Source: Elusimicrobiota bacterium
GTDB lineage: Bacteria; Elusimicrobiota; Elusimicrobia; F11
NCBI GenBank assembly: GCA_003140895.1
Contig: PLLH01000059.1
Coordinates: 20,389 to 54,349 of the forward strand
Direction: 5' to 3'
DNA: 33,961 nucleotides
The notes below the pieces were generated by a model that was given only the letters and a program-made list of their open reading frames with translations, was not told where the DNA came from and did no database searches. A program made the position numbers and the translations under genes. Numbering within the stretch: position 1 is the first letter of the stretch; every line of letters starts with the position of its first letter. Positions 11,145-33,961 of this stretch are shown here, piece after piece.

Positions 11145-11942
11145 TTAATGATAGGAGTGGTCCGGCGTTGGGAAACGGCGGGTCAGAACGTCGGAGCGGT
11201 AACGGGACACGGCCCCTTTCATCAGAATTCTCAGATCGGCGTATTTTTTGACAAATTTCGGCGGCTGCTGAGAAATTCCCAGGAGGTCGTCTAAAACAAG
11301 GATTTGTCCATCGCAGCCGGCGCCGGCGCCGATGCCGATGGTGGGGATGCGGAGGCGTTTCGTGATGGTTTTCCCCAGCGCGGCCGGAATTCCTTCAAGA
11401 ACGAGAGCAAAGACGCCCATGTTTTGAAGGGCGAGCGCGTCTTCCAAAATGGTTTTGGCGTCCGCGGAGGATTTGCCTTGAACGCGGAACCCGCCGAATT
11501 TGTTCACCGATTGGGGCGTCAGTCCCAAATGTCCCATGACAGGGATGTTGGCGTTCAAAATCGCTTTGATGGAGGCGCCGACCCGTTTTCCTCCTTCCAG
11601 TTTGACGGCGTTCGCCCCGCCTTCTTTAATGAAGCGTCCCGCGATGGTGGCGGCTTCCCAGGGGGCGGCCTCATAGGACATGAACGGCATGTCGGCGACC
11701 AGAAGCGCTCGTTTCGTGCCGCGGGAGGAGGCTTTGACGTGATGAAGCATTTCAACGACGGTCACCGGCAGCGTGTTGGCATATCCCAAACGCGTATTGG
11801 CGAGCGAATCTCCAACCAACGCGATATCGATTCCACTTTCATCAATCAACTGGGCGGTGGAGGCGTCGTAGCAGGTCAGCGCGGTGATGGGGATTTTTTC
11901 CTGTTTGTGTTTTTGAAGCGATAAAACGGTAACTTTTTCCAC
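11145..11942 (-). CDS. panB: Ketopantoate hydroxymethyltransferase
   Basis: Transfers a hydroxymethyl group from methylene-tetrahydrofolate to 2-ketoisovalerate, giving ketopantoate, the first committed step of pantothenate synthesis. The 265-residue TIM-barrel enzyme shows LTCYDAST (22-29), LVGDSLANTRLGY with the Mg2+ ligand Asp45, VADMPFMSY with Asp84, KLEGG with Glu116, and catalytic Glu183 in LVLEGIPA. The start is GTG at 11942, chosen because the N-terminus EKVTVLSLQKHKQEKIPITA aligns with ordinary PanB starts; no strong Shine-Dalgarno precedes it. The first 67 nt overlap the end of folK in another frame, so translation may be coupled. PanB uses the folate cofactor made by the pathway of its neighbour folK. 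Confidence 0.96.
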   Translation of the reverse strand: MEKVTVLSLQKHKQEKIPITALTCYDASTAQLIDESGIDIALVGDSLANTRLGYANTLPVTVVEMLHHVKASSRGTKRALLVADMPFMSYEAAPWEAATIAGRFIKEGGANAVKLEGGKRVGASIKAILNANIPVMGHLGLTPQSVNKFGGFRVQGKSSADAKTILEDALALQNMGVFALVLEGIPAALGKTITKRLRIPTIGIGAGAGCDGQILVLDDLLGISQQPPKFVKKYADLRILMKGAVSRYRSDVLTRRFPTPDHSYH

Positions 11943-12445
11943 GGTATGGAAATCGTAACTCTTTGGCCCTCAGGCGTCAATCGACGAAGAAGCGTTCTGT
12001 TTTGACGGCGGAGAACGGGGTGGATGAAGCGGGGGGCGATTTCAGAAAAGGGGGCCAGCACAAACTGTCTCCTATGATAATAAGGATGGGGGGTGGACAA
12101 GCGCCGGTCTTTTATTCGGCGGCGGCCATAGGTCAGAATATCCAAATCAATGGTCCGCGGGCCCCATTTGATGCCCCGTGTCCGGCCCAAACTGATTTCG
12201 ATTTTTTGGAGCGCTTTGAGGAGTTCGGCTGGCCGGAGACGTGTTTCTATCTTGACGACGCCGTTAAGAAAATTCGGTTGCGTCGGTCCTCCAACGGGAT
12301 CCGTGTTATACAGCGAGGATATCTGTTTGATGGACAGGCGTGGGTCCGCGGCCATGTGTTGGAGAGCGTTGAGCAACATTTTTTTGGGATTCCCTTTGTT
12401 GGAACCCAACGCGATGAAGCAAATATGCTTTTTTATGTTTGTCAT
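11876..12445 (-). CDS. folK: HPPK, 6-hydroxymethyl-7,8-dihydropterin pyrophosphokinase
   Basis: Transfers pyrophosphate from ATP to 6-hydroxymethyl-dihydropterin in folate synthesis. The 189-residue protein shows CFIALGSNKGNPKKML (9-24), LYNTDPVGGPTQPNFLNGVV, and the catalytic GPRTIDLDILTYG with metal ligands Asp100 and Asp102, then the STPHPYYHRRQFVLAPFSEI segment. The C-terminus is about 20 residues longer than usual (basic tail), and that extra part is what overlaps panB by 67 nt. This is the first gene of the 12-gene minus-strand run. A perfect TATAAT on the minus strand lies about 30 nt upstream of the ATG; no clear Shine-Dalgarno is seen. Confidence 0.95.
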   Translation of the reverse strand: MTNIKKHICFIALGSNKGNPKKMLLNALQHMAADPRLSIKQISSLYNTDPVGGPTQPNFLNGVVKIETRLRPAELLKALQKIEISLGRTRGIKWGPRTIDLDILTYGRRRIKDRRLSTPHPYYHRRQFVLAPFSEIAPRFIHPVLRRQNRTLLRRLTPEGQRVTISIPWKKLPFYRFKNTNRKKSPSPR

Positions 12446-23759: not shown

Positions 23760-24284
23760 ATGACGATCGAGAGAAGAAAACACAAACGGTTTAGCGCCAC
23801 GGCCTTTTTGAAGATGCCGGTACGACTCACTCCGTTGGCTCCCTATTTCGGCCGAGAGGTTAAGGGGGAATTGATTGATTTGTCGGCCGGCGGAATGGCG
23901 CTCTTGATCAGCGATATTATTCCGCAAGGGACCGCTCTTAAAATAACCCTTTTATTTCCGGATCATTCAAAGATCGATTCCATCGTTGACGTGAGGCGGG
24001 TGGTGCCTCATGGAAAGAAGTTCCTTATCGGAATTGAGTTCCTCGATTTGCCGGGGGCGATGGAGCAAAAGATCGAGAAAATGTCGTCCGACTATATCGA
24101 TTGCGAGGGCCGGATTCAGAAGGCGGAGAAGGACGTGTGCCATACCGATTGCGCCTTTTTCTCCATGTGCACCAAAAAACAAAAATGCGATCCTGTCTTT
24201 AATCCAGACACGGCCCTTGAAATAAGCTTTTCGGAGTTGGAAAAATCCTCTCAGAGAACATCGCCACCTACCCCGTTTCGCTGA
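23760..24284 (+). CDS. PilZ-domain protein with cysteine-rich tail (predicted c-di-GMP receptor)
   Basis: A 174-residue cytosolic protein. The N-terminal PilZ domain has both c-di-GMP-binding motifs: ERRKHKR (4-10, RxxxR type) and DLSAGG (40-45, DxSxxG), followed by the beta-barrel strands to about residue 98. The C-terminal part is unusual: Cys115, then Cys127-x3-Cys131-x5-Cys137-x5-Cys143, a spacing that could bind a metal or sense redox state. The last about 25 residues look disordered. The gene stands alone between yceI (divergent) and the FKBP gene. The Shine-Dalgarno AAGGAGAG lies about 13 nt before the ATG, rather far. Binding of c-di-GMP is predicted from the motifs; the partner is unknown. 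Together with the GEMM-type RNA at 25846 it supports c-di-GMP signalling in this organism. Confidence 0.88.
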   Translation: MTIERRKHKRFSATAFLKMPVRLTPLAPYFGREVKGELIDLSAGGMALLISDIIPQGTALKITLLFPDHSKIDSIVDVRRVVPHGKKFLIGIEFLDLPGAMEQKIEKMSSDYIDCEGRIQKAEKDVCHTDCAFFSMCTKKQKCDPVFNPDTALEISFSELEKSSQRTSPPTPFR

Positions 24285-25767: not shown

Positions 25768-25796
25768 TTGAAAAACCAGGTCCCATCCCATATATA
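25768..25796 (+). promoter_or_regulatory. Promoter upstream of the riboswitch
   Basis: TTGAAA (25768-25773, 5/6 match), a 17-nt spacer, and TATATA (25791-25796, 4/6). Transcription would begin near 25803, just before the structured leader. From 25803 to 25845 a GCCAGC/GCTGGT hairpin is possible. Confidence 0.65.
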
Positions 25797-25845
25797 CGAT
25801 TATGTAGGAATGGGGCTATTTATGCCTCGACAAAGCCAGCCTCGC

Positions 25846-25950
25846 TGGTCATCCGCGTAGGCGGATGGGCGAACCCTTCGAAATAAGGGGGCGCAAAACC
25901 ACGGCACCGACTTCCTCTTCACGCTGGAGGAAAGGTGGGCCGGGTCACCG
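25846..25950 (+). ncRNA. Class I cyclic-di-GMP riboswitch (GEMM) aptamer
   Basis: I aligned this by eye with the Vibrio cholerae Vc2 aptamer. GGGCGAACC (25867-25875) matches GGGCAAACC. P2 is CCCTT/AAGGG around a GAAA tetraloop (25880-25883). GGGGCGCAAAACC (25888-25900) matches GGGACGCAAAGCC, the ligand-binding junction and receptor. P3 is CACC..TTCCTC/GAGGAA..GGTG, and the 3' strand GGGCCGGGTCACCG (25937-25950) matches AGCGGGGTTACCG. P1 pairs GGT-x-A with T-x-ACC, even keeping the internal pyrimidine mismatch of Vc2. A 14-nt hairpin-forming insert (CCGC/GCGG) lies between P1 and the GGGCGAACC strand. The Gs at the ligand-contact position are kept, favouring c-di-GMP over cGAMP; this is a visual call. 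The FecR gene starts 19 nt downstream. Confidence 0.82.
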
Positions 25951-25968
25951 AAACAAAAAGAGGATTAT

Positions 25969-27801
25969 TTGGACCACACGAGTTCAAGTTCCACAGGAAT
26001 AAACCCGCGGATGTATTGCGTCCGTCGGCTTTTTTATGCCCTGACACTCTTTTTTGTTGGATTTCCACTCCTTCTTTCCGCTCAAGATGCTTCTCTTCGA
26101 GAAAAAGCGACCTCTTCCTCCACCGCGTCAACACGTCGGAAACGCCCCTTATCGCTTCAACGGCGGCAGGCTCGTGCTCAAAAGACGACCAGAAACGAAT
26201 CCCGGGCTGTGTCGTCGGCAACGCCGGCAGAACCGTCTGCGACGGAACCGTCCGCGAAACTCGAGGGGGTTCGTCAAAAAGTTGACGTTCAGTCGGTCAA
26301 CGCCACGTCGTGGGTTCGGGGCCGGGATAAAATGGCGTTGAGCGAGAAAGACAAGATCCGGACCGGTCTTCGCTCAACGGCGCGCGTGAGTCTGGAAGAC
26401 GGCTCCAAAATCCTTTTGCTCCAAAATTCCCAGGCTGAACTCGAAAACCTGTCTTCTGTTCAGCGGGCCATTAAGCTTTTGAAGGGCCGCGTGCGCGCGG
26501 TCGTGAAGAAATTACGGGGGCCGGGTTCCTTTAAGATTAAGACGCCGGTGGGCGTGGCCAGCGTGCGCGGGACCGAATTTGAAGTGGAATTCTCCGAAGA
26601 AGGCCAGGAGATGGCCGTGGACGTCTTGAGCGGGAGCGTCGGGGTTTCCAAGTTGGGTGAGTTGGCGGATGAAGTGGTTCTGCAGCCGGGGGAGCGGATT
26701 AAGTTCGGCCTTGAAGGGGTTATGGGGGATCCGATTCGTTCGGGCGCGATTCCCTTGAACCGGCAAGATATCCGGCAAGAGATCCAGATCGCGAGCGTCA
26801 AAAACGGGATCATCGCCCAAGCGGCGGAAGAATCCCGAAACGCGGATTATCAGGTCGGGAAAACGATGATGGACGTGGACGGAAAAAGAGTCCGCATCGA
26901 AGAGTACATCATGAGGCCCGCGGCGGATCAATTTAAGTTGGTTGTCCTTAATCACCGGGATTCCCGTTTTGATTATTTCACGTACAAAGGGACGTTCAAT
27001 AAAGATTTGCCGGCGGACCTCTCGGTGGCGCTCAAAGAAGTCGGAGGGAAGTTGGGGGCGACCGCTCCTGATTATTACCTCACGGGTTACGAGATGGTGA
27101 TGTCCAACACAAAGGACAATATCACCGACACCGCGTCCGGCGGGCATTTGGTCCAAATCCGAATTGATGGAGACCAATATGTTCTCACGAACACGGATTC
27201 CAGCGGGGTGACGACGGAAAAACGCGTGGACATCGCGGCGGGACAGGCCGATGGGTCGTATCGCGTGTACGATCCTCTCTCTGATAATTTCAAGCTCGTC
27301 ACGGCGGCCAACCTGACGGAGGCCAAAAAACTATCCATCCTGGATCCGGTGACCGATAGTTATCGTGATTTGGCCTCATCCGATTCCTATTGGAAAACAC
27401 GGTTTAACGACTACTCCTATAGGATCAATCAGACGCTCAAACAGACGTTTTCAAAAAAGTCGACGATGTCGAATACGCTGGCCATCGATTTGGACGCCAC
27501 CTGGACCAATTCTCCCGTGACGAGCATCTCGGAATATCCGTCCGGAACGGGGACGCTTTATAACCGGTTGAGCCTGTATTATCAGGACGGTTCCAAAACC
27601 GTTTTCGACAACTACATCATCAATGACAACGGAGACGTGGCGCCAGCCAGCCGTTTCGACGGGCTTTCCACCAGCACGGCGTATAAAAATGAGCTTCTGA
27701 AATGGAATTATCAGCAGAAAGTGAAATCGACGGAGATGAGCGATGAAATTAATCTGGTGGTGGATCCGCGGATCGGCACCATGTCGGGGTTGATGAAATG
27801 A
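25969..27801 (+). CDS. Exported FecR-domain protein
   Basis: First gene after the riboswitch. A Shine-Dalgarno AAGAGGA (25958-25964) ends 4 nt before the TTG at 25969, giving 610 residues; an ATG at 26011 (596 residues) is the alternative and gives a more compact signal peptide (MYCVRRLFYALTLFFVGFPL, cleavage near LSA-Q). Residues of about 45-100 are a Ser/Arg/Ala-rich, low-complexity linker. A FecR domain follows at about 105-245 (VNATSWVRGRDKMALSEKDK, RVSLEDGSKILL, KIKTPVGVASVRGTEFEVEF, QPGERIKFG). The remaining about 360 residues have no recognised domain. FecR domains occur in anti-sigma regulators and in surface-structure proteins; with a signal peptide, no transmembrane helix after it and no sigma gene nearby, the second is more likely. 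It overlaps the beta-barrel gene by 4 nt. Confidence 0.9.
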   Translation: MDHTSSSSTGINPRMYCVRRLFYALTLFFVGFPLLLSAQDASLREKATSSSTASTRRKRPLSLQRRQARAQKTTRNESRAVSSATPAEPSATEPSAKLEGVRQKVDVQSVNATSWVRGRDKMALSEKDKIRTGLRSTARVSLEDGSKILLLQNSQAELENLSSVQRAIKLLKGRVRAVVKKLRGPGSFKIKTPVGVASVRGTEFEVEFSEEGQEMAVDVLSGSVGVSKLGELADEVVLQPGERIKFGLEGVMGDPIRSGAIPLNRQDIRQEIQIASVKNGIIAQAAEESRNADYQVGKTMMDVDGKRVRIEEYIMRPAADQFKLVVLNHRDSRFDYFTYKGTFNKDLPADLSVALKEVGGKLGATAPDYYLTGYEMVMSNTKDNITDTASGGHLVQIRIDGDQYVLTNTDSSGVTTEKRVDIAAGQADGSYRVYDPLSDNFKLVTAANLTEAKKLSILDPVTDSYRDLASSDSYWKTRFNDYSYRINQTLKQTFSKKSTMSNTLAIDLDATWTNSPVTSISEYPSGTGTLYNRLSLYYQDGSKTVFDNYIINDNGDVAPASRFDGLSTSTAYKNELLKWNYQQKVKSTEMSDEINLVVDPRIGTMSGLMK

Positions 27802-29030
27802 GAACGTTGAACCTCTCCTCCCGATGGGCGGCGTCTTTGGCCTTGATCCCGGCTCTCGCGGCCGTCATCTCGGCGGGGCCGACCTATATTCCCGTCGCCA
27901 GCGGGCAATTTTATACCGGTCAATATTATTTCGACGGGAAGAAGAGCGCCCTGGCCGGAAACGCCGGGCTCACCTTTGTCCCCGCCCTTCGATATTCAAG
28001 CCGTTTTAGCCTTATCCCAACGATCGAGAGCCGGTACCGGGGAACCCGTTCCGCCGAAGAGTTGGCCGGAGGAACGACGTTGTTCCAGGATACATGGGAG
28101 AACGGGCTCAGCATCAAAGCCGTTCACGGGTTGGACCGCCACTGGAAAATCCGTGAAAACCTTGGCGTTCGAACGAAATGGTTCCGGGAAACAACGAACG
28201 AAACGTGGCGCAAAGGACTTTATGACTACCGGACGTTTGACGCCGGCGGCGAAGTGGAGCATAAATGGAGCCCGTCACTTTCGGTGGCGGGCGGGTATGA
28301 TTATTCGTTCCTGATGTTTCCCAATTATGAGTCGTTGGAATCCAATCAAAACAGCGATTTGGCTCGGGAGTATGCCGGGAAAGATGTGTTGAACGAGCAT
28401 ATCCATCTTTTCTCCCTTCGTTCCGAGACCCCGTTTTTCTTCGGACTTCATACGCAGACTCAACTCTACTATTCCCCGCGAAATTACACGGATCAACACG
28501 TTGTGGTATTGACCGGGCTTCTGACGGCGGAAAAACGGACCGACAGCGTGGTGGGAGGATCTTTGTCATTTGGACGGCCTTTCAAACTCAGCCAGCGCGC
28601 TTCTTTGGTCACCAATCTTGAATACGGCTATACGGGACTTAACTCCAATCAAAATCATTACGACGCGCGGCTCACCACCTTCATCGGCGATTTTTACGAC
28701 TACGTTCAAAACCAGGGGAGCCTTCAGTTGACGTGGGGTTTAAATGTGGGCGAGTCCGGACCTTTGACGTTTGAGACCGGAGTGTCTTATTCGAAGCGGA
28801 ACTATTCTCATCGGCCCATTCAATCGGCGGACGGAAATTATCTCAGTGAAAAGCTCAACGTGACGGAGACGGACATCAACATCGGCTTTGGATACCCGCT
28901 GTCAAAGAGTCTTCGTTTAAGGGTGATCTCGAATTTTGGACGAAGCCGCTCCAATAACCACTACGAGGCGCTGTACCGGTACAATTACTCGAACGCCAAT
29001 TACCTTTTCGGATTTACGTATGAATATTAA
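27798..29030 (+). CDS. Predicted outer-membrane beta-barrel protein
   Basis: A 410-residue protein with a signal peptide (MRTLNLSSRWAASLALIPAL, cleavage near ISA-G). The mature part is a run of alternating, aromatic-edged strands such as SLSVAGGYDYSFL, HTQTQLYYSPRNY, SLVTNLEYGYTGL, LTFETGVSYSKRNYS, DINIGFGYPL and LRLRVISNFGRS, and it ends in YLFGFTYEY with a terminal aromatic residue, as outer-membrane proteins recognised by BamA do. I estimate about 14-18 strands. No known porin or usher family was recognised. ATGA overlap with the FecR gene and an 11-nt overlap with the giant gene downstream indicate one operon and probably one complex. A role as anchor or export channel for the giant protein is inference. 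Confidence 0.85.
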   Translation: MRTLNLSSRWAASLALIPALAAVISAGPTYIPVASGQFYTGQYYFDGKKSALAGNAGLTFVPALRYSSRFSLIPTIESRYRGTRSAEELAGGTTLFQDTWENGLSIKAVHGLDRHWKIRENLGVRTKWFRETTNETWRKGLYDYRTFDAGGEVEHKWSPSLSVAGGYDYSFLMFPNYESLESNQNSDLAREYAGKDVLNEHIHLFSLRSETPFFFGLHTQTQLYYSPRNYTDQHVVVLTGLLTAEKRTDSVVGGSLSFGRPFKLSQRASLVTNLEYGYTGLNSNQNHYDARLTTFIGDFYDYVQNQGSLQLTWGLNVGESGPLTFETGVSYSKRNYSHRPIQSADGNYLSEKLNVTETDINIGFGYPLSKSLRLRVISNFGRSRSNNHYEALYRYNYSNANYLFGFTYEY

Positions 29031-32000
29031 CGTTGGATTAAAAAAGAGTGTTGGACTTCTTGGGGCGGTGGCCCTGGGGTTCCTCTTCGTTTCTTCGGCG
29101 AAGGCGTCTTCGTTTGACGGGGAAGGCTCGGCGGCGTTCGCCTCGAGTGATTCGATTCGCTCAGGCGCTGTGACGTTGACAACCATGACGTTCACCGTGG
29201 GGGCTCATGGGATTTTGACCGGAGGAGAAATTTCCCTTCGCGTGCCCGATTCGTGGGGGTGGCCCACTATCAGCCAGGGGAACATCGGGACTGTTTATTC
29301 TGGTTATGTGGATATCTCAACGGCCAATATCTCCGCGGGGCTCACTCTCTACACAACGGGGCCGGCCCTGGTGATTCAAGTGTTCAGCGGCAATTTGCCC
29401 AGTGGGGCCACATTCCAATTTCATTATGCCGTCATGACGTGTGATGCGGGAACCACGGCCCCTTTCCGACTGTTTACAAAACAGAATTCCACGGGAACGT
29501 TGACGGCGATAGCGACGTTTCCGACGTTGACAACGGCCATCGGCCCCGCCAACAATCTTTCGTTTGACTCCGTGGGAGAATTGGTTGTTCCCATTGGAAG
29601 CACGGTTCCCGTCACGATCACGGTCCGGGATACCTGTTGGCATCTCGCGAGTTTTAATACGAATACCGATGTGTCGATCAGCGCCAGTCGGTACGATCAA
29701 GTTCTCTATAAGGATGTTGTCGATGAAGATGCCGAATTGTCATTATTCAGCAGCTTTTCTCCGACAATTCCTTTGTCATCTGGGACCATTTCAATTTCTA
29801 CTGGAGTTTCCTTTAAGCGCGTGTTTTATCGCATTAACTCGGCTGGACTACCGGCGGGCAATTCCTCGCATCAAATTAAGATGACGTATTCCATTCCGAA
29901 TGAACCCTGGTTGCATCAGAGCATGGTTATGGTTCGTCCGATCACCGGCGGCATCACCAACGCGTCGGTCGATACAGGCGTTATCATGCCGGGTCAGACG
30001 CAGGTTGAATTCACGCCGGACAACGATGGGGTGAGCGACAGCGTCTTTGTGAATTTCACCACCCCTGAAAACATGGGATGGAAAGTACAGTTCTCGTCTA
30101 ATAACTTTTCAACCATCGTGAAAACAATTTGGGGATATGGAACGTTGGGCCGTGTATCGTGGGATGGATACAGCGATGATTTGCGCGCGACGGCCCCTCC
30201 GGGGATCTATCGGATACGAATTGCGTTGTCCGGCGACACGATTGTGGATACGTCGCTCACCGCCACGTTGGCTTCGAATGGGGTTGTCGGTCGCGTGATT
30301 GAAGCCGTGGGCGGAAGCGGTGTCGAAGGCGCCGAAGTCAATGTCTTTGGTCCATCCGGACGAATGGTTCGAAGCGATGCGAACGGATATTTCTCCATCT
30401 ACGGACTTCAACGGGGGTCCTACAGCGTTCAGGTCCGCAAGGTCGGTTATGACACGGCCCAGACGTCCAACATCGCCGTTAATGGAGTCACAACCATCCC
30501 CGATATCCAAATGTTGTCCGGGTCCGTCCTGAAAATTTACGCCACCCGCCTCGCGGTCGGCCAGGAAATTTGGGGGAACATCAACGCTCATTCCAGCGAT
30601 TGGGTGAAACAGGCATGGGGATCAATCCACTTCGCTTCTTCCAGCGCGACGTCCGATTCCGGAAATAATTATGATGGCCTGGCATCCACTTTTACGGCGT
30701 TGACGTTGGCTCCCGGCGTGAGCTACGTCGTTCATTTCGACGTTCCGGGACTCGGCATCTCCGATTTTAATGTCACCTTGGCCACCGGAGAGACGAGAAG
30801 TATGTCGGTTGAGCTTAGTCGGCGGGCCGATATTTATGGAACGGTTTGGTTGCCGTCGACGGCGTCCAATCCCAACGGACTGTCCATCTCGGTGGAAGCG
30901 GGGATCGACAATAACAACGACGGCATTTATGACAATTCCGACACCTCTCAACGGTTCTGGGGCGGTCTTTATATAAATCCCAACCAATCCTCCGGCACGT
31001 ATCGGATCTATGGCGTCGTTAACGGGAAGTACCATTTGGAAGCGCGGGCCCCTGGATACTCCAGGTCGGTGGCTCAGGCCGAGGTTACGGGTCCGGATGT
31101 CAGGGTTGATTTTTCTACGTTTACTGTCGGCGGAACATTGTCCGGGACGATTACAGTTGAAGGAGATTCGTCGAGTTTGGATTCGAACGATGGGACGCTG
31201 GATGGGAAATTTTCGATTCCGATTAACGCGTGGTCTGCTGCCACCAATAATGGCGCCTGGATGCAGATTCAGATGGCGACGAACAGCGTGTCGGTCAGCA
31301 GCGCGTACACGTTGACGGGGTTGGATGACGGCGTTTATGACGTGTGGGTTTACCTCCCGGGATTCGAGACGCTTCCACCGGGCTCTAAGCGGGGTGTCGT
31401 CAGAAATAAAACAGGGACCCTCGATATTACCTTTAAGCAATATTCCGGAACGTTAAGCGGGAGCATCACCCTTCCCGGGACGAGCAGCGACTACAGCAAC
31501 GTCAGAATTGAGGTGCTTTCCTACGACTATTCAAACCAAAGTTATTCCACTGTCCCGACGGGCAATACCTACGTGTTTCACGGATTGGGCACCAATTTCT
31601 ACACGGTGCGCGCTTATTACGCGACCACGGGGATGGTGGTGGAGAGAAGTATTCAGGTGGTCAATGGGCGGCCTTCCGTCCTCAATCTGAATTTGAGCGG
31701 GGGGACCTATGCTATATCCGGCCGCGTCACCTCCTCCGCCGGCTCGCCCTTTGATTCGCTCTCCTATATTATTAACAACAGCACTCCGACCAGTCTTTAC
31801 AATCTCGCGAATTCAACACAGATTCCGGCCAATCGCATCGTGGCGACGAAACTTCAGAATCGCAACTTCAGCGGCAATATGGACACATCCGCGGCGGCGA
31901 CTATGTCGTATGACCCCTTAACGACCTTCTTTGGATTTTATGACGCCAACGGCAATTACACCATTGATCGGCTGACCCCGGGGACCTATCTCCTTAAGAA

Positions 32001-33961
32001 CAACGCCGAGATGAACAACGATAGCTCCGGCAAGGAAATCGCCGAGGTGTCGCGGGTGGTGAGCATCGTGAGTTCCAATCTGACCAATGAGGACATCGCG
32101 TTGACGGACGGTTATGATGTCACGGGAACGCTTCAGGTGGCCAGCGGGGAAGCGGAAGCCGGACGCGGATTGATGGTGAGTTTAAAAGATAAGAGCGGCG
32201 AGAAAGTGGCGAAAGATTACGAGTACCTCTCGGGCACGTCCGTCGGTTTCACGTTGAAACGCATTCCTCCCGGGTCTTATGTTTTATCCGCCGAAGACAA
32301 TCAAATACCGAAGAAATATTCGGCCAAGGACGTGAGCGTTGAAGTCGCCGCCTCGAGCGTGACGAACAAAGAGATTCTCCTTCTCCAGGCGGCCAAAATT
32401 CAAGGACAGCTCCGGCTGAAAGCGTCTGGCGTTTTGCTGACCAATAACAACTATTCCCAGTATCTGCCCAGTAATTTTTATATCCAAGCCAACGCCAACC
32501 CGTGGTTCCAGGGAGGCTACGCGCAGGCCAACCAATCTCCGTCTCTGATTGATTCCACCGGGCGGTTTGTGATCCAACCGAATCCGGGAACCTATGATGT
32601 GATGTTTCAGTCATCAGGATTTATCGGCGATGAAAATATCGCGAAGGGACAAATACAATTCGCGCCGGTCACGATGAGCGGTATTCAGGTGGAAGCCGGC
32701 CAGACGTACGATATGGGCGTTGTCGACTTGATCGAAGGGGCGGATGTCACGGGAACGATCACCAATAAAAAGAGAGAGCCTCTGCCGAATATTTTGGTTT
32801 ATTCGTATCCAACGGAAGAGGGCAACGCGAAGAATCAAAGCTCGCTGGAGGGGTTGACCGATCAATCGGGGCATTATGTCCTGCACGGCGTCGATCAAAT
32901 GGGGAAGCGGTATTACGATATCAAGGCGGCTCCTCGGCCCGATAGCGGCGATCAGCGGTTTTCATTTGGATTCAACGGGGTTCGTTACGGGGAGGTGTTG
33001 AAGACGCAAGTCGACACGCAGAAAATTAATTCCTCCACGACCACGATCGACTTTGTTTTGGAAGCGGCCGCCGGGAGCGTGAGCGGAACCGTGGTCACGC
33101 CCGACGGCGGAAAGCTGGAGCTGCCGTTCGACGATAAGGCAGATTATACGTTGGGAGCCTTTGTCATTATGAACAAGCGGGGAAATGTGCCGCAGGGCAA
33201 TCCCCTCGGGAATATTGAGCAGAACACCTCGCCCAACGGGGATTTTCAGGTGGCGGGGCTCACTCCCGGCCTTTACGATCTCTGGATTTTGGCCAAAGGA
33301 TATCGGAGCGGCGTCCGTCGGAATATCACCGTTGGAGAAGGCAATACCGATTTGCAGGCCATCACGCTTTCGACGGGAGCGACGCTCTCGGGAAAACTGT
33401 CCAAAGCGGACGGGAGCGCGCCGAACACCAGCGAGATTGATGTGATTTTGGCCGTCCGAAATGGGTTTGAAGAACTGATCATCGGGAACGTCTCGGCGGA
33501 CGCGGCGGGAACCATTTCGGGTTATTCCATCACCGGCTTCCAGCCCGACAAGGCGTATTCCATTCTCCTGTTCACGACGAGTGATGATGTCTTTTCGTTG
33601 GCGTCCAACGTGGTTGTCGGCAATAACACGGAGCGTAACTTCACGATTGAGGAAAAGCAGCCGGAGATCTTCACGCAGGCGGCCAAAGGCCGGGATGGAA
33701 AAATGACCGTTCAGTTTGAATTCACGAAGCCTCTTCGAAATTCCAGGGTGGATATTGATGGAAACGGAGAGGCGGACGATTCCGAGATGGTCAAAATCAT
33801 TAAGGTTAAAACCGGGAAAGGGGATTTGGCCAAGCCGGCGTCGGGTGTTTGGCTGTCGTCGGATCGAAAACACGCCAGCATGGTTTATACGCCGGCCTCC
33901 CGGGAATCTTCTTTTGAGCTCACGGTGAACGCCGTCTTTAATTCCATCGACGCGGCGACGG
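29020..33961 (+). CDS. Giant exported surface protein with FlgD-like and repeated carboxypeptidase-regulatory-like modules, 3' end outside window
   Basis: The frame is open from the ATG at 29020 to the window edge (at least 1647 residues). A signal peptide of about 30 residues ends near SSAKA-S. Residues of about 30-320 form an unrecognised beta-rich region; about 328-407 resembles an FlgD-like Ig domain (FTPDNDGVSDSVFVNFTTPE and PPGIYRIRIAL). From about 419 on, repeated beta-sandwich modules of the carboxypeptidase regulatory type follow. The first is classic (VGRVIEAVGGSGVEGAEVNV, SDANGYFSIYGLQRGSYSVQ). Others begin near 704, 808, 895, 1031, 1125, 1241, 1351 and 1454 with V-x-G-T-like strands and close with L-x-PG-x-Y motifs. 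Such arrays are typical of extended stalks of surface proteins. No cleavage or sorting signal can be judged because the C-terminus is missing. It overlaps the beta-barrel gene by 11 nt. Confidence 0.9.
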   Translation, partial: MNINVGLKKSVGLLGAVALGFLFVSSAKASSFDGEGSAAFASSDSIRSGAVTLTTMTFTVGAHGILTGGEISLRVPDSWGWPTISQGNIGTVYSGYVDISTANISAGLTLYTTGPALVIQVFSGNLPSGATFQFHYAVMTCDAGTTAPFRLFTKQNSTGTLTAIATFPTLTTAIGPANNLSFDSVGELVVPIGSTVPVTITVRDTCWHLASFNTNTDVSISASRYDQVLYKDVVDEDAELSLFSSFSPTIPLSSGTISISTGVSFKRVFYRINSAGLPAGNSSHQIKMTYSIPNEPWLHQSMVMVRPITGGITNASVDTGVIMPGQTQVEFTPDNDGVSDSVFVNFTTPENMGWKVQFSSNNFSTIVKTIWGYGTLGRVSWDGYSDDLRATAPPGIYRIRIALSGDTIVDTSLTATLASNGVVGRVIEAVGGSGVEGAEVNVFGPSGRMVRSDANGYFSIYGLQRGSYSVQVRKVGYDTAQTSNIAVNGVTTIPDIQMLSGSVLKIYATRLAVGQEIWGNINAHSSDWVKQAWGSIHFASSSATSDSGNNYDGLASTFTALTLAPGVSYVVHFDVPGLGISDFNVTLATGETRSMSVELSRRADIYGTVWLPSTASNPNGLSISVEAGIDNNNDGIYDNSDTSQRFWGGLYINPNQSSGTYRIYGVVNGKYHLEARAPGYSRSVAQAEVTGPDVRVDFSTFTVGGTLSGTITVEGDSSSLDSNDGTLDGKFSIPINAWSAATNNGAWMQIQMATNSVSVSSAYTLTGLDDGVYDVWVYLPGFETLPPGSKRGVVRNKTGTLDITFKQYSGTLSGSITLPGTSSDYSNVRIEVLSYDYSNQSYSTVPTGNTYVFHGLGTNFYTVRAYYATTGMVVERSIQVVNGRPSVLNLNLSGGTYAISGRVTSSAGSPFDSLSYIINNSTPTSLYNLANSTQIPANRIVATKLQNRNFSGNMDTSAAATMSYDPLTTFFGFYDANGNYTIDRLTPGTYLLKNNAEMNNDSSGKEIAEVSRVVSIVSSNLTNEDIALTDGYDVTGTLQVASGEAEAGRGLMVSLKDKSGEKVAKDYEYLSGTSVGFTLKRIPPGSYVLSAEDNQIPKKYSAKDVSVEVAASSVTNKEILLLQAAKIQGQLRLKASGVLLTNNNYSQYLPSNFYIQANANPWFQGGYAQANQSPSLIDSTGRFVIQPNPGTYDVMFQSSGFIGDENIAKGQIQFAPVTMSGIQVEAGQTYDMGVVDLIEGADVTGTITNKKREPLPNILVYSYPTEEGNAKNQSSLEGLTDQSGHYVLHGVDQMGKRYYDIKAAPRPDSGDQRFSFGFNGVRYGEVLKTQVDTQKINSSTTTIDFVLEAAAGSVSGTVVTPDGGKLELPFDDKADYTLGAFVIMNKRGNVPQGNPLGNIEQNTSPNGDFQVAGLTPGLYDLWILAKGYRSGVRRNITVGEGNTDLQAITLSTGATLSGKLSKADGSAPNTSEIDVILAVRNGFEELIIGNVSADAAGTISGYSITGFQPDKAYSILLFTTSDDVFSLASNVVVGNNTERNFTIEEKQPEIFTQAAKGRDGKMTVQFEFTKPLRNSRVDIDGNGEADDSEMVKIIKVKTGKGDLAKPASGVWLSSDRKHASMVYTPASRESSFELTVNAVFNSIDAAT

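Follow-up and report, generated by a model that had tools for sequence, protein, structure and literature searches.

The window analysed here is a 33,961-nt stretch from an Elusimicrobiota metagenome-assembled genome (MAG) of 2.5 Mb in 118 contigs (G000). Within it, an operon on the forward strand begins with a gene (25969–27801) for an exported FecR-domain protein of 610 residues (PF04773, 67.4 bits), whose closest named relatives lie in other Elusimicrobiota MAGs, including Candidatus Obscuribacterium magneticum; among NCBIfam models, leptospiral surface adhesin/lipoprotein families come nearest, though far under their cut-offs. The second gene (27798–29030) encodes an outer-membrane β-barrel of 410 residues and about 16 strands (AlphaFold pLDDT 89), resembling porin-, AlgE- and FadL-type barrels in the PDB with modest TM-scores. 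The third (28936–33961) encodes a very large secreted protein of about 1650 residues with CarboxypepD_reg-type β-sandwich repeats (PF13620, 126.9 bits) and, read on the contig, ends 5 nt beyond the window. The first-pass annotation had described a three-gene surface-protein operon 3′ of the riboswitch; domain matches and the AlphaFold model bear out the FecR, barrel and giant genes, but the set was too small, and the operon runs past the window into closely spaced genes for a FlgD-Ig/T9SS-tail-like protein, a PorV-family protein (NF033709, 152.8 bits against a cut-off of 90) and a PilZ protein. Genes for PilZ, a c-di-GMP receptor, flank the operon on both sides (23760–24284 of the window and 11781–12299 of locus L073), and the downstream one may be the operon's last gene. 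The promoter previously placed ahead of the aptamer could not be confirmed: a promoter scan found none there, and the possible sigma-70 promoter that can be picked out by eye on the forward strand (25768–25796, TTGAAA-17-TATATA, 9/12 consensus matches) is weak.

Directly upstream of the FecR gene lies a c-di-GMP-I (GEMM-I) riboswitch aptamer of the G20/A47 type (25858–25952, forward strand). An Rfam scan of the whole window matched it to RF01051 at 50.2 bits (cut-off 35, E = 4e-7), aligned over the full length of the model (1–87/87), and this was the sole family above its gathering threshold in the window. The GEMM-I identification made earlier thus passes the covariance-model check that had been named for it. 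A class-specific model built from 29 sequences, the window aptamer among them, scored it at 63 bits, and the transcript of positions 25800–26050 folds 4.3 standard deviations better than shuffles. The RNA is confirmed as a real class I c-di-GMP riboswitch, well beyond a chance match; as an aptamer, it adds one more member to a known class. The conserved blocks GGGCGAACC, GCGCAAAACC and GGGTCACCGAA are present, as are the GNRA loop of P2 (GAAA) and, in the 3′ strand, the conserved CC that is invariant in the class alignment. The blocks and loop on which the annotation had relied therefore stand, but its compatible pairings include two imperfect ones, a C-U mismatch closing P2 and an A-C as the outermost pair of P3. 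P3 is longer than the RF01051 consensus. The annotated span, 25846–25950, had captured the right element but began about 10 nt early.

In the class-specific alignment, position 20 of the window aptamer is G and position 47 is A. Changing A20 to G in a Geobacter GEMM aptamer shifts selectivity from cGAMP to c-di-GMP (PMC6456294), and with its G20 the window aptamer falls outside the A20-defined, cGAMP-selective GEMM-Ib group. The window genome has 14 GGDEF matches, and in every domain that could be read the selectivity site is the canonical Asp. Because of the G20/A47 core and these Asp-type GGDEF domains, c-di-GMP is the expected ligand, and the aptamer almost certainly senses it; the earlier assignment from family membership is thereby strengthened, while remaining a prediction. 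Across the class Elusimicrobia, a search of 60 genomes yielded 97 aptamers after one fragment was set aside, of which about 71 are G20/A47 and 23 are A20. Two others carry G47 (L187, 255–370, in G026; L200, 501–617, in G021), a change that we take to mark the c-di-GMP-I-GGC variant family. Aptamers of the A20 (cGAMP) type also precede FecR orthologs in G007 (L010, L080) and G013 (L099). A Hypr-type (Ser/Thr) GGDEF partner for them was sought by motif reading and not found in either genome; a few domains were off-pattern, and G013 is 74% complete.

The order FecR then barrel is widely conserved in the class, yet an aptamer was found at only 4 of the roughly 35 FecR loci examined; there it lies directly upstream of the orthologous gene in G000, G003, G007 and G013, representing three families. 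At most of the other FecR loci examined, including that of the same-family genome G001, we did not find one. The control of the operon that had been proposed from position is thus backed by synteny in four genomes, but most orthologous FecR operons do without the aptamer. The aptamer-less FecR gene of G001 (L077, contig C17) carries a terminator-like hairpin of −12.1 kcal/mol in its signal-peptide codons, perhaps left over from a riboswitch since lost.

What the first-pass annotation had overlooked is the expression platform, located within the first gene. All of its features lie on the forward strand. A Shine–Dalgarno (SD)-like AAGAGGA (25958–25964; anti-SD duplex −5.8 kcal/mol) lies 5 nt 3′ of the aptamer and is followed 4 nt later by TTG (25969–25971), the probable start codon of the FecR-domain gene; an alternative ATG occurs at 26011–26013. 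In this open frame, downstream of the TTG, an intrinsic-terminator hairpin (26005–26028, −12.8 kcal/mol) that includes the ATG in its stem is followed by the U-tract TTTTTT (26030–26035), which is read as Leu-Phe-Tyr where the signal-peptide core begins. The TTG and the ATG are the sole starts before the hydrophobic core LFYALTLFFVGFPLLL, and the FecR frame contains no start codon between the U-tract and the end of that core. Since the only starts precede the U-tract, the terminator is signal-peptide coding sequence if the FecR protein is exported. The hairpin begins 52 nt past the aptamer end, pairs with itself only and forms in the free transcript with a mean pair probability of 0.92. Tested alone against synonymous shuffling, the locus gives p = 0.065 by permutation and 0.025 by resampling; taken singly, its terminator barely exceeds chance expectation, and the evidence from this locus is modest.

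The case for the in-gene terminator rests on its recurrence in the class. A terminator of −8 kcal/mol or better lies within 200 nt of 77 of the 97 aptamers, and at 35 loci, from 21 genomes and 11 families, the hairpin falls inside an open reading frame that begins near the aptamer. The start codon at such loci is mostly 0–18 nt past the aptamer, which puts the terminator in the signal-peptide codons, and mostly there is no separate SD between aptamer and start. An ATG within 20 nt followed by a frame open through the terminator was observed at 31 of 65 loci, against 2.8 expected from dinucleotide shuffles of the leaders. In-gene terminators of −10 kcal/mol or better occur in 34/58 aptamer-adjacent reading frames and in 14/179 other signal-peptide reading frames from the fetched loci (Fisher p = 7e-15); as related genomes count as independent in the class-wide p-values, these are to be taken as strong and not literally. 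Among FecR orthologs, the in-gene terminator is present in 4/4 genes with an aptamer and 3/29 without (p = 9e-4). In G003, the hairpin and U-tract lie at +82, compared with +77 in the window, despite a quite different N-terminal protein sequence. At L004 and L005, where the genes are of the FFYVQVAYG type, the aptamer is followed by a leader terminator and then by a second one within the signal-peptide codons. Tandem GEMM-I aptamers precede a single gene at L003, L022, L179 and L183.

We lean, by a modest degree, towards reading the window locus as a c-di-GMP riboswitch that acts on a terminator in the signal-peptide codons of its first gene, with the ribosome as antiterminator and the whole working as an OFF-switch. 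Fast initiation beside the aptamer would let ribosomes cover codons 10–25, and RNA polymerase would read through; the ligand-stabilised aptamer would hinder initiation, the terminator would fold and transcription would end after about 230 nt, so that c-di-GMP would lower expression of the operon. From this anatomy we infer that the antiterminator would be the first ribosome and not an RNA strand, because the start abuts the aptamer and most siblings have no separate SD. We are least sure of the OFF direction, because c-di-GMP usually promotes attachment to surfaces, and an ON-switch would fit that role. The window start, TTG at +16, has its own SD outside the aptamer, and occlusion by the bound aptamer is therefore less obvious here than at those siblings that have an ATG at +3 to +8. 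Sequestration of the SD by UCCUCUU in the P3 strand, the complement of AAGAGGA, was considered and is unlikely; the free fold holds UUCCUC in P3 and leaves most bases of AAGAGGA unpaired. An absence of Rho was likewise considered and discarded: PF07497 gave no match in G000, but TIGR00767 finds Rho in the class, with pieces at contig ends in G000.

Could the terminator be a by-product of coding, arising from the U-rich Phe and Leu codons of hydrophobic segments, or the result of a misassigned start codon? Signal-peptide cores are indeed U-rich and many of the assigned starts have no SD, but we regard this as very improbable. When codons were permuted synonymously, preserving both protein and codon content, 19/58 aptamer-adjacent loci reached p ≤ 0.05 compared with 9/185 controls, in which hairpins weaker than −8 kcal/mol were scored as p = 1. 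Misassignment is opposed by 30 loci at which the stretch between U-tract and hydrophobic core offers no start codon, leaving only an upstream start, and by the FFYVQVAYG-type proteins, whose N-termini are comparable whether the terminator lies before or inside the gene. The in-gene hairpins are thus stronger than the encoded protein requires, and both the shuffles and the aptamer-free orthologs support selection on them. The same observations weigh on a purely translational switch, in which the aptamer gates ribosome access to the adjoining start and the role of the in-gene hairpin is confined to tuning translation or the stability of the mRNA. Such a switch would suit an SD-like site and start codon 6–19 nt from the aptamer and the position of ATG 26011 within the hairpin stem; it is nevertheless improbable, given that the hairpins abut U-tracts, which a hairpin serving translation alone would not need, that hairpin and U-tract jointly exceed synonymous shuffles, and that aptamer-free FecR orthologs mostly lack the combination.

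A more serious competitor, though still unlikely in our estimate, is an ordinary transcriptional riboswitch of the type of Clostridioides Cd1, in which the ligand frees an RNA strand and the terminator forms (OFF), the coding overlap reflects a short leader and ribosomes have no regulatory part. Many loci of both the in-gene and the leader type (gene start past the terminator) do have their terminators at comparable distances, about +50 to +100, and some leader-type loci have a clear antiterminator made from the aptamer 3′ strand: this strand pairs with the 5′ arm of the terminator at p ≤ 0.01 in 4/35 of them and at p = 0.015 in a fifth. The second riboswitch of G000 is one of these five. In contrast, such pairing at p ≤ 0.01 occurs in 0/39 in-gene loci, and the pairing tests disclosed no RNA antiterminator general to all loci. 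The window gives p = 0.76 and is absent from the best in-gene pairings, and its free transcript already forms the terminator. A terminator stem that uses the aptamer-stabilising 3′ strand, as in pilM, was not found at the window either. The clustering of start codons just past the aptamer also speaks against a purely RNA-based switch. The missing antiterminator at in-gene loci is not decisive, as only 5/35 leader-type siblings show a clear one. The second G000 riboswitch itself (L002, 1432–1581, contig C77) has its GEMM-I halves split by a hairpin-forming insert of about 70 nt between GACG and CAAAG, followed by a strong leader terminator with matching antiterminator and then a PorV-family TPR gene; the insert is single-copy, which rules out a repeated mobile element.

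Against this background, the favoured reading, with the terminator in codons and the ribosome as antiterminator, can be set beside known systems. The window riboswitch shares with RF01051 members such as Vc2 and Cd1 the full-length model match, the G20/A47 core, surface-related genes downstream and an intrinsic terminator 3′ of the aptamer, but differs in having its terminator within signal-peptide codons of the gene it controls. In Cd1, the ligand frees an RNA strand so that the terminator forms, and the antiterminator is derived from the aptamer (PMC9262584); we found none of this kind for the window. The Geobacter cGAMP riboswitches (GEMM-Ib), such as that of pilM, have the same fold and share A20 with the FecR operons of G007 and G013, whereas position 20 is G in the window. 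The terminator of pilM is built with the aptamer-stabilising strand (PMC9262584), unlike that of the window. The proposed ribosome step has parallels outside the GEMM family. In the Rho-coupled translational riboswitches (E. coli thiC and btuB, M. tuberculosis leaders), as these systems are known in outline, the ligand would likewise block initiation and the untranslated mRNA would be terminated in the coding region; at the window, an intrinsic terminator in codons 10–25 would take the place of Rho. In leader-peptide attenuators such as bmrCD of Bacillus subtilis, again in outline, ribosome position would similarly decide whether the terminator folds; the window has no leader peptide, and its attenuator lies in the structural gene, where the aptamer would set ribosome entry.

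The in-gene terminator appears to be an undescribed riboswitch platform, a new variant of which the window locus is one instance. Full-text search, which leaves most subscription papers outside its reach, returned no paper joining Elusimicrobiota with c-di-GMP riboswitches, and at the level of titles and abstracts none described a riboswitch whose platform is an intrinsic terminator placed in signal-peptide codons, so that novelty is claimed provisionally. Among 83 proteins encoded downstream of the class aptamers, 20 matched PorV/PorQ families, 4 FecR, 3 SprA and 3 PorU-type models (E ≤ 1e-5). Because such matches recur, the cyclic-dinucleotide riboswitches of the class seem to control surface and type-IX-secretion-like genes. 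The SprA match of G000 is weak and under its cut-off, leaving type IX secretion in this genome a candidate only. For the class as a whole, we advance tentatively, at somewhat less than even chance, a platform in which the signal-peptide codons also form an intrinsic terminator, with the initiating ribosome as antiterminator, so that a cyclic dinucleotide binding beside the start would cause premature termination of surface and type-IX-secretion-like genes.

What is new is therefore the platform and not the aptamer: a recurrent terminator written into protein codons, found in 11 families of one class. Should ribosomes indeed serve as antiterminator, the platform would be a counterpart, working without Rho, to riboswitch termination coupled to translation, and would offer a single-gene test bed for transcription–translation coupling. 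The finding also connects cyclic-dinucleotide signalling in Elusimicrobiota with type-IX-secretion-like genes, among them PorV/PorQ and SprA-like ones.
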